In this document: positions 781 through 25,837 of the stretch, piece after piece | Layout of the letters: every line of letters starts with the position of its first letter | How positions within the stretch are numbered: the stretch's first letter is position 1 | DNA from: an uncultured Clostridia bacterium | Lineage (GTDB): Bacteria > Bacillota > Clostridia > Oscillospirales > Acutalibacteraceae | DNA length: 64,000 nucleotides | Direction: 5' to 3' | Assembly: GCA_945874765.1 (NCBI GenBank) | Contig: CAMCHQ010000010.1 | Coordinates: 1 to 64,000, forward strand | Made by a program: the position numbers and the translations under genes | The notes under the pieces: model-generated | Told to the model about the DNA's origin: nothing | The model's database searches: none | What the model saw: the letters and a program-made list of their open reading frames with translations, nothing else

Positions 781-1595
781 TTGATTTTTTCCTTAATTGT
801 TTCAAAAATATACGGCGCAATGTCGATTTTAGTAGAATTCATAATGTTAATTATATGTGCATTTGAATTTACCTCACATACACTGCCGTCATCGAGAATA
901 TCAACTCCGCCAAATGTTAAACCGAGTGCGTTGCAAGCTTTTATTGCCGTTTCAATTTCCTTTTCGGTCGGTTTGCAGGGTGTCATTGTGCCGCCGTTTG
1001 TAACATTTGAACGAAAATCACTTTTGTTTTCTCTTTCTGCCGCACAAATATATTTTCCGCCGATTATTTCAATTCTTTTGTCGTGCCCTTTGCTTTCGCC
1101 GATAAATTTTTGAAGAATAAACGGCTTTTCGCTTATGTGAGAAAAAATTTCCTCTTTTGTATTGCATAAAAAAACCTGTGCACCGAACGAGCCGAACGAC
1201 TCTTTGAAAACAAGCGGAAAGGTGAGAATCGATATCGCTTTTTCAACAAATTCGCTCATATCCGATTTAAAATAGCATTTTGGTGCGATAAGTGTTTTAG
1301 GTTGAGGCACAATGCCGTCAAGCTCAATATATGTTCTGCCTTTATCATCGCATTTTTCAATTGAATCGGCAGAGTTGAAAACGGGAATACCGCTTTTTTC
1401 AATTCTTCTTGCAAGGTTAATGTCCTTATCCCAAAAAAGTACAAAATCAGCCTGCGCCTTTTCGGTTGCAAGCTCCAAATTTGTTTTTATATTAAGATTA
1501 ATACCGCATTTTTTTGCCGAATTTACAAGATGATTGTGGAGTGTATCGTATTTTTCACCTTTTAAAAAATGATTTACTGTCAATATGCCGTTCAT
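777..1595 (-). CDS. RimK-like ATP-grasp ligase
   Basis: A 272-residue ATP-grasp protein, the first gene of a two-gene operon. The glycine-rich loop FKESFGSFGAQVF, the RimK signature AERENKSDFRSNVTNGG and the terminal Glu-x-Asn pair in EVNSNA can all be seen. This is the order found in RimK and LysX-type amino acid ligases. AAGGTGAT lies 5 nt upstream of the ATG, supporting the start. It shares architecture with the downstream gene, but that copy is shorter and has a different metal-binding end, so they look like old, diverged duplicates. A role in adding amino acids to a peptide or metabolite is an inference from the family. Confidence 0.72.
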   Translation of the reverse strand: MNGILTVNHFLKGEKYDTLHNHLVNSAKKCGINLNIKTNLELATEKAQADFVLFWDKDINLARRIEKSGIPVFNSADSIEKCDDKGRTYIELDGIVPQPKTLIAPKCYFKSDMSEFVEKAISILTFPLVFKESFGSFGAQVFLCNTKEEIFSHISEKPFILQKFIGESKGHDKRIEIIGGKYICAAERENKSDFRSNVTNGGTMTPCKPTEKEIETAIKACNALGLTFGGVDILDDGSVCEVNSNAHIINIMNSTKIDIAPYIFETIKEKIK

Positions 1596-1697
1596 TTTGT
1601 ATCACCTTGAATTATTGTATCATTCTCTATTGCATTTTTCAATGTAATGGTATAAAATATTAACCTAAATTATAAATTACTGAAAGGTGATGTAAAG

Positions 1698-21745: not shown

Positions 21746-22012
21746 TTATTTTTCAAGAAGGTTGTTGTCTTCGAGCATTTTTATGAATTTTTCAATATCT
21801 CGTCTTGCCGTTTCTTCGTCGATGTCATATTCTTCAAGAACTTTTTTGATAACCTCTTCTTCAGTCGTATCGTTTACCATTGAATCCCAAAAAAACGAAC
21901 CCGAATCATTGAGCGTAATCATTCCGTTAAAATCCTTTGTGGCAGAGCCTACTGGAACTACTATATTTGAACCGGCAATTTTTCTTTTTGCAAAGCCGCT
22001 TTTGATTTTCAT
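21746..22012 (-). CDS. Orphan PqqD-family protein
   Basis: An 88-residue protein of the PqqD fold. The typical segments LNDSGSFFWDSM and EEYDIDEETARRDIEKFIKML are visible. PqqD-like proteins bind a precursor peptide and hand it to a radical SAM enzyme during RiPP synthesis. No radical SAM partner or precursor is next to it here. Orphan copies are common in Clostridia. It is a single-gene transcript. Confidence 0.75.
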   Translation of the reverse strand: MKIKSGFAKRKIAGSNIVVPVGSATKDFNGMITLNDSGSFFWDSMVNDTTEEEVIKKVLEEYDIDEETARRDIEKFIKMLEDNNLLEK

Positions 22013-22140
22013 ATTACTTTTTTTCCTTTCAAATGCTGAATTTTAGTATTAATATTGTACCAAAATTGAATGATTTTTTCAAGTTTTCTTATAATAGTAT
22101 CTAAATCATAAAAGTTTTGACAAAAAATTAGCATTTACTC

Positions 22141-22169
22141 TTGAAGATAGACAGGCAATTGGGTATAAT
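22141..22169 (+). promoter_or_regulatory. Promoter of the NifU-like/GGGtGRT operon
   Basis: TTGAAG at 22141-22146 and TATAAT at 22164-22169 with a 17-nt spacer, about 70 nt before the first ATG. Confidence 0.6.
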
Positions 22170-22239
22170 ATTTGTGATAATTTTATAAATTATTATTTTT
22201 GGCAATATTAAAAGCTAAAATATGGAAGGAGTAATTCAA

Positions 22240-22932
22240 ATGATTTATTCACATGAAGTTGAAACAATGTGTCCTGTAGCACAGGGCGTTGCTCACGGTG
22301 CTGCTCCGATTCCGGAGGAAGCAAAATGGGTAAAGGCAAAAGAAATTAAAGATATTTCAGGCTTCACACACGGTGTAGGTTGGTGTGCACCTCAGCAGGG
22401 TACCTGTAAGCTCAGCCTTAACATTAAGGGCGGTGTTATTCAGGAAGCTCTTGTTGAGACAGTAGGTTGCTCAGGTATGACTCACTCAGCTGCTATGGCT
22501 GCTGAAATTCTTCCGGGCAGAACTATTCTTGAAGCTCTTAACACAGACCTTGTTTGTGACGCTATTAACACAGCTATGAGAGAGCTTTTCCTCCAGATCG
22601 TTTACGGTCGTTCACAGAGTGCTTTCTCTGATGACGGTCTTGCAATCGGTGCAGGTCTTGAGGACCTCGGTAAAGGTCTTCGTTCACAGGTTGGTACGAT
22701 GTACGGTACTCTTGCAAAGGGTCCTCGTTACCTTGAAATGACAGACGGTTATGTAACAGGTATTGCTCTTGATGCCGACAACGAAATCATCGGTTACAAG
22801 TTCGTAAACTTCGGCAAGATGATGGACTTCATTAAGGCTGGCGACGATGCTAACACAGCATTTGAGAAGGCTCAGGGTCAGTACGGCAGAGTTGATGATG
22901 CAGTTAAGATTATCGACCCAAGAAAAGAATAA
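22240..22932 (+). CDS. NifU-like scaffold protein paired with GGGtGRT protein
   Basis: A 230-residue protein related to the NifU/IscU Fe-S scaffold. Cysteines sit in METMCP, GWCAPQQGTCKL and the scaffold-type loop VETVGCSGMTHSAAMAAEIL. The segment LSLNIKGGVIQEALVETVGC mirrors the IscU core. It is longer than IscU (about 130), with extra C-terminal sequence. AAGGAG 8 nt upstream supports ATG 22240. Codons are strongly biased to GCT, GGT, CTT and AAG, as in highly expressed genes. It forms an operon with the GGGtGRT gene, a pairing I recall as conserved. The role is unknown. Confidence 0.75.
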   Translation: MIYSHEVETMCPVAQGVAHGAAPIPEEAKWVKAKEIKDISGFTHGVGWCAPQQGTCKLSLNIKGGVIQEALVETVGCSGMTHSAAMAAEILPGRTILEALNTDLVCDAINTAMRELFLQIVYGRSQSAFSDDGLAIGAGLEDLGKGLRSQVGTMYGTLAKGPRYLEMTDGYVTGIALDADNEIIGYKFVNFGKMMDFIKAGDDANTAFEKAQGQYGRVDDAVKIIDPRKE

Positions 22933-22946
22933 GGAGGAAAAAGACA

Positions 22947-23942
22947 ATGGCTTTATTTGAATCATATGAAAGAAGAGAGAAACAAATTCTTGATGTTCTC
23001 GCTCAGTACGATATTAAATCAATTGAAGAGTGCAGAGAAATCTGTCAGGCTAAAGGCTTTGATCCTTATAAAATCGTTGAGGGTATTCAGCCAATCTGCT
23101 TTGAAAACGCAAAGTGGGCTTATACTGTAGGCTGCGCAATCGCTCTTAAGAAGGGTGTTAAGACTGCTGCCGAGGCTGCTGCTGCAATCGGTGAGGGTCT
23201 TCAGTCATTCTGTATTCCGGGTTCGGTTGCTGACCAGAGAAAAGTAGGTCTTGGCCACGGTAACCTCGGTAAGATGCTTCTTGAAGAGGAAACAGAGTGC
23301 TTCGCATTCCTTGCAGGTCACGAATCATTCGCTGCTGCCGAAGGCGCTATCGGTATCGCTGAAAAGGCTAACAAGGTTAGAAAAAAACCTCTTCGTGTTA
23401 TTCTTAACGGTCTTGGTAAAGACGCAGCTCAGATTATCGCAAGAATCAACGGCTTCACATATATTGAAACCGAAATGGATTATTATACAGGCGAGGTTAA
23501 GGAAGTATTCCGCAAGGCTTACTCTGACGGACTTCGTTCAAAGGTTAACTGCTACGGCGCTAACGACGTAACAGAAGGCGTTGCTATTATGTGGAAGGAA
23601 AATGTTGACGTTTCTATCACAGGTAACTCAACTAACCCAACACGTTTCCAGCATCCTGTTGCAGGCACATATAAGAAGGAACGTCTTGAAGCCGGCAAGA
23701 AGTATTTCTCAGTTGCATCAGGCGGCGGCACAGGCCGTACTCTTCATCCTGATAATATGGCAGCAGGTCCTGCTTCATACGGTATGACAGATACTATGGG
23801 CAGAATGCACTCAGACGCTCAGTTCGCAGGTTCATCTTCAGTTCCTGCTCATGTTGAGATGATGGGTCTTATCGGTATGGGTAACAACCCGATGGTCGGC
23901 GCAACCGTAGCATGTGCTGTTGCAGTTGCAGAGGCTCTTTAA
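22947..23942 (+). CDS. GGGtGRT family protein
   Basis: A 331-residue protein of the GGGtGRT family, named for its motif, seen here as SVASGGGTGRTLHPDN near residue 267. The C-terminal part has many Gly and Met residues (YGMTDTMGRMHSDAQFAGSS), and five cysteines are spread through the chain. AAGGAGG lies 7 nt before the ATG, and the gene follows the NifU-like gene by 14 nt. Both share the same high-expression codon bias. No catalytic role is established to my knowledge. An Fe-S or redox function is a guess from the partner. Confidence 0.85.
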   Translation: MALFESYERREKQILDVLAQYDIKSIEECREICQAKGFDPYKIVEGIQPICFENAKWAYTVGCAIALKKGVKTAAEAAAAIGEGLQSFCIPGSVADQRKVGLGHGNLGKMLLEEETECFAFLAGHESFAAAEGAIGIAEKANKVRKKPLRVILNGLGKDAAQIIARINGFTYIETEMDYYTGEVKEVFRKAYSDGLRSKVNCYGANDVTEGVAIMWKENVDVSITGNSTNPTRFQHPVAGTYKKERLEAGKKYFSVASGGGTGRTLHPDNMAAGPASYGMTDTMGRMHSDAQFAGSSSVPAHVEMMGLIGMGNNPMVGATVACAVAVAEAL

Positions 23943-24166
23943 TCGATAACTTAATAAGACGAAAGTGTTGGCGGTTGCGCCGACACGAGTGTCCAAAATA
24001 TGCAGCGTTTCGCAAGAAACGCTGTTTTATTTTGGTAGAAAAGGTCCGGTGGACCTTTTCGCAACTGAGTGATGTCACACGTTTTAATGCGTAGTGATAA
24101 TTCATTTTTTGGTGCGGTAGTTGCAGTTGCAGAGGCTCTTTAATCGAAAGCTTTAATAAGACGAAA
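23919..24166. repeat. Direct repeat of the GGGtGRT gene end around an insert
   Basis: A 46-bp sequence that includes the last codons and stop of the GGGtGRT gene (23919-23964) recurs at 24120-24166 with one gap and few mismatches. The first 27 nt are identical. The 155 bp between hold three hairpins: GTGTTGGCG/CGCCGACAC, CAGCGTTTC/GAAACGCTG and AAAAGGTCC/GGACCTTTT. The natural terminator lies after the second copy. Nothing in the insert looks like a gene. Confidence 0.8.
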
Positions 24167-24172
24167 ATTAAT

Positions 24173-24207
24173 AAAACCGATGTTTTGTAAAGAACATCGG
24201 TTTTTTG
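24173..24207 (+). terminator. Terminator of the GGGtGRT operon
   Basis: AAAACCGATGTT at 24173-24184 pairs with AACATCGGTTTT at 24193-24204, followed by more T. Confidence 0.85.
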
Positions 24208-25524: not shown

Positions 25525-25804
25525 ACAAATTAATAGTACCCAAACAAAGACTGTGAAGCAGAAAAAGACCTTCTATTTCGGTTTAAGAGAGTTGACGGGT
25601 GGTGCAAGTCAATACAGGTAAAAGGTGTATAGCTCTCTGCTAAGTTGCTGTTCTGAATAGAAATCAATAGGAACAGACGGTTTGCCTCGTTATTGGCAGA
25701 GGCATTGATTGATGCTAAAGGGCAGGGGCTTAACCTTGCTGAAGTAGGGTGGTACAGCGTGATATTAACGCCCCTATACTCTTTGTGTAGGGGCTTATTT
25801 TTTT
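25525..25804 (+). promoter_or_regulatory. T-box leader, leucine type
   Basis: The leader has the T-box sequence AGGGTGGTACAGCG at 25746-25759, a Stem I distal segment starting AGAGAGTTGACGG near 25587, and a terminator stem GCCCCTATAC/GTGTAGGGGC at 25770-25794 followed by T-rich sequence. A CTC triplet around 25633-25637, in the 3' side of Stem I, is the likely leucine specifier. Uncharged tRNA-Leu should pair with it, stabilise the antiterminator and allow leuA transcription. Confidence 0.92.
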
Positions 25805-25837
25805 GCTCCTGTGCAAAAACGAAAGGAGATTAACATT

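Follow-up and report, generated by a model that had tools for sequence, protein, structure and literature searches.

A NifU-like protein and a GGGtGRT protein, encoded by adjacent genes in the window (the whole 64,000-nucleotide stretch of DNA analysed here), constitute an obligate pair. Our preferred reading, to which we assign a probability of about 0.45, is that the two are the subunits of an iron-sulfur (Fe-S) protein, probably an enzyme, whose cluster would reside on the NifU-like subunit; the physical complex, the cluster type and catalysis are what we infer. Both families are already named and the pair is visible in annotation. The new elements are the quantification of the obligate pairing, the absence of scaffold residues together with the confinement of the invariant cysteines to the NifU-like partner, and the joining of two independent published iron data sets. 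Proteins with these names are reported to be abundant in gut bacteria, without an assigned function and yet named after nitrogen fixation. An obligate pair that lacks the scaffold release residues, combined with two previously unconnected iron data sets, makes the role directly testable and, if the reading is true, many gut bacteria would have an iron sink or iron enzyme that has so far gone unassigned.

The two genes are separated by 14 bases and each is preceded by a Shine-Dalgarno sequence located 8–9 bases 5' of its ATG (Table 1). The NifU-like TAA runs into the AAGGAGG that serves the GGGtGRT gene, and the two genes are translationally coupled. Both genes that the initial annotation had described as tightly coupled are real and lie where it had placed them. 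The start of the NifU-like gene was assigned to the ATG at 22240 and not to position 22222 of the mechanical ORF list because of the location of its AAGGAG. A consensus scan of the region returned 13 promoter-like sites over both strands against 5.2 expected, while a similar −35/−10 pair was recognised by eye in 16 of 17 related upstream regions (that of L018 is cut short). No known RNA family was detected upstream of the pair with Rfam at gathering thresholds.

Table 1. Coordinates of the pair and of associated signals in the window.
Feature	Position	Strand	Basis or remark
Upstream sigma-70-like promoter candidate, TTGAAT-18-TATAAT	22066..22095	+	Consensus scan
Main promoter candidate, TTGAAG-17-TATAAT	22141..22169	+	Consensus scan and related upstream regions
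Ribosome-binding site of NifU-like gene, AAGGAG	22226..22231	+	
NifU-like (IscU-family-derived) protein gene, 230 aa	22240..22932	+	ORF, profile searches, orthologues
Cys49 codon, NifU-like gene	22384..22386	+	Invariant, 162/162 distinct sequences
Cys77 codon, NifU-like gene; aligned with IscU Cys63	22468..22470	+	Invariant
Cys106 codon, NifU-like gene; near IscU Cys106 region	22555..22557	+	Invariant, 162/162 distinct sequences
Ribosome-binding site of GGGtGRT gene, AAGGAGG; overlaps NifU-like stop codon	22931..22937	+	
GGGtGRT protein gene (PF14057), 331 aa	22947..23942	+	643.1 bits
GGGTGRT motif, residues 259-265 of GGGtGRT protein	23721..23741	+	
Direct repeat copy 1, imperfect; covers GGGtGRT 3' end	23919..23964	+	34 nt at 94% and 14 nt at 100%
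Direct repeat copy 2, 201-202 bases downstream; possible attachment-site scar	24120..24166	+	
Intrinsic-terminator-like hairpin, after second repeat copy	24173..24204	+	

Of 249 genomes from the phylum of the window, 16 encode GGGtGRT and the same 16 a pair-type NifU-like protein, with 17 copies of each; the pair-type NifU-like proteins score 361–479 bits and anything else 30.3 bits at most. Similarly, the 201 Bacteroidaceae genomes comprise 150 with GGGtGRT, 150 with the NifU-like protein, 149 with both and 50 with neither, the 149 having been compared by eye and including some genomes in which one of the genes is just a fragment. Each of the two genomes with a single gene (G490 and G473) has it at a contig end. 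Both genes are found in one and the same set of 10 records of the plasmid collection. Co-occurrence, which the initial annotation had proposed as a check, is thus borne out, with one-gene genomes absent from the 249 and from the plasmid records and reduced to two contig-end cases in the 201. The distance matrices of the two protein trees correlate with r 0.78 over 77 pairs, the best of 999 permutations reaching 0.19. One genome (G207) contains two diverged copies of the whole pair (L011 and L017), and its second GGGtGRT scores 526 bits compared with 604–650 for the others in the 249-genome sample.

Gene order and strand are the same in all 17 copies of the 249-genome sample, in 78 of 78 testable loci among 80 named genome loci (L070 and L086 begin too near the gene), in 4 of 4 testable among 6 viral-collection loci and in 71 of 71 testable among 73 further loci (the L160 match is spurious, and the L170 sequence begins within the gene). 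Adjacency in the Bacteroidaceae was scripted for 30 genomes. The genes of G534, G545, G547 and G595 are on different contigs, as judged by eye, and in each of these four genomes one or both genes lie no more than 600 bases from a contig start; for G485 and G505 the position of the GGGtGRT fragment is not listed. The intergenic spacing at the 78 loci is 2–60 bases in 70, less or an apparent overlap in 6 and 147–165 bases in 2. A small ORF lies between the pair genes of Parabacteroides distasonis, and in the Bacteroidaceae locus L155 a 23S rRNA IVP-like ORF (PF05635, 54.4 bits; 1290–1658, minus strand) occupies the same position. No third neighbour family is conserved at more than 14 of 83 loci; the overlap filter of this neighbour comparison retained 73 GGGtGRT and 71 NifU-like loci, and the order counts over 78 loci are the better measure. 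The L160 candidate, a gammaproteobacterial match of 18.5 bits and below the cut-off, was rejected, as the region has no ORF related to either protein; it contains an unrelated ORF of 659 aa and another that is ferredoxin-like.

Profile comparisons soundly place the NifU-like protein as a remote member of the IscU/NifU family that shares its ancestry with canonical NifU. Its score against NifU_N (PF01592) is 17.8 bits, under the curated cut-off of 22, and the two relatives scanned reach 23.0 (L014) and 16.5 bits (L017). Against the Fe-S assembly NifU model TIGR03419 it scores 22.5 bits, under the cut-off of 187.9. Residues 32–102 align with canonical NifU in hhalign with an E of 7.9e-8 and a probability of 94.5%, while the best solved NifU/IscU chains in the PDB match the NifU-like profile with E of 6e-5 to 1e-4. 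The zinc-dependent sulfurtransferase SufU (TIGR01994) gives a weak match within the same fold family, 18.9 bits and far under the cut-off of 92.5, and Collinsella aerofaciens has a distinct sufU gene close to the pair. Weak Pfam matches to SepZ, NeqB_N, Dirigent and HHH_RecD2 were rejected, being below their cut-offs and not common to all members scanned.

The NifU-like protein is not the standard scaffold of the cell. A canonical NifU is encoded elsewhere in the same genome (G000:C9:31450-31812, 176.8 bits), directly 3' of a NifS-like gene, and in all 16 pair-bearing genomes among the 249 the best NifU_N match has an E of 1e-16 or better, which exceeds the reach of pair-type proteins (16.5–23 bits). 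The separate canonical gene was confirmed in place for G000 and for the genomes fetched for canonical NifU. Compared with the IscU/NifU N-terminal scaffold (PF01592; TIGR03419, TIGR01999), the likeness of the NifU-like protein extends over residues ~32–102 and includes the equivalence of Cys77 with IscU Cys63. In contrast, the protein falls below the family cut-offs, lacks the N-terminal DHFxNPRNVG segment as well as the CGD and HC motifs, and has a C-terminal extension of ~120 residues and an obligate partner. At all 11 loci selected by a high PF01592 score, canonical NifU has the C-G-D and H-C motifs; the filter for these loci required both motifs and excluded no candidate. In the 64 rows of pair-type proteins (alignments A2 and A4, with overlapping rows), the C-A-P-x-Q-G loop is always without an Asp and Cys106 is never preceded by a His. 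Alignment A4 holds 47 of the 61 dereplicated NifU-like proteins (from 80) plus that of the window, and its GGGtGRT counterpart A3 holds 44 of 52 (from 83) plus that of the window. D39A and its homologues are reported to stabilise the cluster, D39 being needed for efficient release, and H106A to stabilise it too (PMC13423590). The natural absence of the scaffold Asp and His from the NifU-like protein suggests a protein that would keep its cluster.

Cys49, Cys77 and Cys106 are invariant across 162 distinct NifU-like sequences from 173 loci, while Cys56 is not (157/162). Cys77 aligns firmly with IscU Cys63. Cys49 and Cys106 are displaced by a few residues from IscU Cys37 and Cys106 in the alignments. 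A single site formed by the three cysteines is likely, with the caution that the inexact alignment of Cys49 and Cys106 with IscU means that the three may not meet at one site. The IscU-type Cys loop of the initial annotation is borne out in part: it agrees with Cys77, but Cys49 is a few residues away from the Cys37 position and the loop Asp is gone.

The GGGtGRT protein of the window is a full-length member of PF14057, from which it does not differ, and covers profile positions 1–327 of 327 against a curated cut-off of 27 bits. Its identity to the best 80 of 584 relatives is 79–82% in Bacteroidota (n=15) and 79–95% in Bacillota (n=61), figures that describe near relatives because they come from those best 80; diverged members go down to 61–65%. 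A total of 110 positions are invariant in 150 distinct GGGtGRT sequences, the invariance counts of both proteins omitting L154, L104, L105, ORFs of <150 aa and matches shorter than 215 or 315 residues. The invariant residues comprise four His and many Asp, Glu, Arg, Asn and Gly, and include H104, H125, H236, H302, K158, D159, R233, R264 and D269. No Cys is invariant across the 150 sequences. With the invariant Cys residues confined to the NifU-like protein, it is unlikely that both subunits contribute cysteines to one shared cluster. Searches of solved structures gave a guanylyl cyclase match at chance level (E 0.18–0.19), which disappeared with a more diverse profile and was rejected; the diverse profile found no relative among the solved structures by sequence. 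Read by hand, the sequence might comprise helices followed by a Rossmann-like α/β part, which is a guess. The open-access papers that name the GGGtGRT family assign it no function in the parts that deal with it, and the earlier statement that both proteins lack a known activity agrees with the open-access full text found, where no functional study appears.

In the preferred reading, the NifU-like and GGGtGRT proteins would form one cytosolic enzyme of anaerobic metabolism, abundant when iron is plentiful. The NifU-like subunit would be a descendant of an IscU/NifU scaffold turned permanent cluster holder, with Cys49, Cys77 and Cys106 binding the cluster. Because only three cysteines are invariant, one iron of the cluster would be open or would take a ligand from the partner. 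GGGtGRT would close over the cluster of the NifU-like subunit and supply the substrate site. The neighbour families of the pair include no pathway gene hinting at a substrate. The more specific version, that an IscU-fold scaffold became the cofactor subunit of a new class of Fe-S enzyme in which GGGtGRT is catalytic and the reaction lies outside those of known enzymes, is put forward tentatively and seems the less probable of the two statements.

Codon usage places both proteins among those expected to be abundant. With 19 ribosomal-protein genes of the same genome as reference, the NifU-like and GGGtGRT genes have codon adaptation values of 0.783 and 0.782, the highest and second highest among 60 window ORFs, which were picked mechanically and may include spurious ones; the medians are 0.470 for these 60 ORFs and 0.744 for the ribosomal genes themselves. 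Unrelated bacteria of the chicken caecum are reported to express GGGtGRT at high levels in vivo (PMC11204068; orthology by name). Rumen values for "nitrogen-fixing protein NifU" are 0.28, 1.72 and 1.47% in three cows (PMC6043501 Table 1), where this label is a top-25 family, may include canonical NifU and is given with no mention of GGGtGRT beside it. A GGGtGRT protein and a NifU-domain protein with the consecutive locus tags DFSSTS7063_01431 and DFSSTS7063_01432 decrease together after chemoradiotherapy (PMC12014591). The probable abundance proposed in the initial annotation is supported by these codon ranks and by the published proteomes, the latter matched by name.

The distribution of the pair is uneven. 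With centre genomes counted, it occurs in 39 of 149 Coriobacteriia, 10 of 149 Spirochaetota and 1 of 148 Bacteroidota, that one being the centre genome, and GGGtGRT above the cut-off was found in 1 of 229 Gammaproteobacteria, again the centre genome only. Of 14 control genomes only a Bacteroides has the pair. FastTree nearest-neighbour distances place some spirochaete copies near Bacteroidota, some near Bacillota and some alone, and place the Succinivibrio copies nearest Bacillota (viral loci were left out of the tree). This scattered placement suggests that the pair moved between gut anaerobes by transfer. Vibrio and Persicobacter carry the pair in the plasmid collection, and it is therefore not confined to gut organisms. 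To our knowledge neither genus is regarded as strictly anaerobic, which counts against an enzyme of anaerobic metabolism.

A strong dependence on iron has been published for two phyla, in papers that, where they list these proteins, do not treat the pair as a system (PMC10434189, PMC5395762); the data come from two other species and orthology is taken from the names used there. In Bacteroides thetaiotaomicron BT0173-74 (GGGtGRT and NifU) change by −12.8 to −11-fold under iron depletion (PMC10434189 Table 6), and the authors place NifU under nitrogen metabolism. Decreases at low iron in the same study are 2.7–3-fold for ferritin and rubrerythrin, with 2.7-fold for ferritin itself, 3.6-fold for Hcp and 2.5–3.6-fold for Rnf and hydrogenase, while the operon of the nrf nitrite reductase, a heme-containing cytochrome, responds 30–36-fold and exceeds the pair. 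Since this heme-containing system responds more strongly, a response of such magnitude is not specific to Fe-S proteins. In Clostridium pasteurianum iron raises GGGtGRT 7.1-fold in the early phase and 2.2-fold in the late phase, 7.1 being the largest early Fe+ value in Table 2 of PMC5395762, and the NifU-related protein is 2.4–3.7-fold higher early. Of the Fe-S or redox enzyme with two subunits proposed in the initial annotation, the involvement of iron gains from these two responses, while enzymatic activity is still a guess.

The enzyme reading is weakened because induction by iron and high abundance would be expected of a storage protein just as much. The pair would then act as an iron-sulfur store or buffer, an abundant complex in which iron and sulfide are deposited as clusters at high iron supply and later released, and would be an analogue of ferritin or IssA for anaerobes. 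We consider this unlikely, though it stands ahead of the remaining alternatives. A store would be consistent with an iron response well over that of ferritin and rubrerythrin in B. thetaiotaomicron, the leading early value in C. pasteurianum, ribosomal-like codon usage, and a cassette without conserved pathway neighbours and with a patchy occurrence over several phyla. The pair also adjoins a whole suf gene set in Collinsella aerofaciens, lying 3' of sufC, sufB, sufD, sufS and sufU with a transposase in between. Against a store stands the finding of only three invariant Cys per NifU-like protein and none in GGGtGRT, and the invariant positions of GGGtGRT, many of them polar, probably exceed what a store should need. 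The still larger response of the nrf operon indicates that a strong response does not require storage. The thioferrate storage protein IssA (PMC5524996) is a possible functional analogy, as a case of iron-sulfur storage in an anaerobe, but Pfam at E up to 1 found no IssA-type domain, of the NifB/NifX type (IPR003731), in either protein.

The loss of the two scaffold residues, Asp and His, also bears on a NifU-like protein dedicated to making or delivering a cluster for one client, GGGtGRT. IscU-family homology and obligate pairing would agree with such an assembly or carrier protein, but without these two residues, with no invariant Cys in GGGtGRT to receive the cluster and with an equally high codon adaptation of both genes, which would fit equal amounts, it is somewhat less probable than a store. 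Least probable is an IscU-like fold with zinc, as in SufU, or with no metal, in a pair that handles sulfur or an unrelated metabolite under indirect iron regulation: SufU is among the weak relatives of the NifU-like protein, and rumen NifU and GGGtGRT are reported to fall after feeding with cysteine synthase and O-acetylhomoserine thiol-lyase (PMC7035244), but in two phyla the pair responds to iron more than several known iron proteins measured alongside it.

Mobile elements integrate at the 3' end of the GGGtGRT gene, as seen at loci L098–L102, L156, L157 and L158. Genes of the phage-integrase family lie directly 3' of GGGtGRT in 5 of 6 viral-collection contigs and in a Bacteroides element. 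At the far side lies a direct repeat of the gene end, 210 bases long in the Bacteroides element and 242 bases in L156; no integrase was seen at the latter locus. The repeat of the window itself may be the scar of an integration event. A second PF14057 match occurs in 14 of 150 Bacteroidaceae genomes, some of which may be contig splits. In the vicinity of the pair, the window encodes a PqqD-family ORF upstream (PF05402, 65.5 bits; 21746–22012, minus strand) and contains a T-box leader at 25544–25778 (104.8 bits) before a 587-aa gene at 25811, which we take to be 2-isopropylmalate synthase. The neighbourhood of the pair in P. distasonis (L152, 5409–9957) is redox-flavoured, with a TlpA-type disulfide reductase, an OsmC protein and a nitroreductase family protein flanking the two genes.
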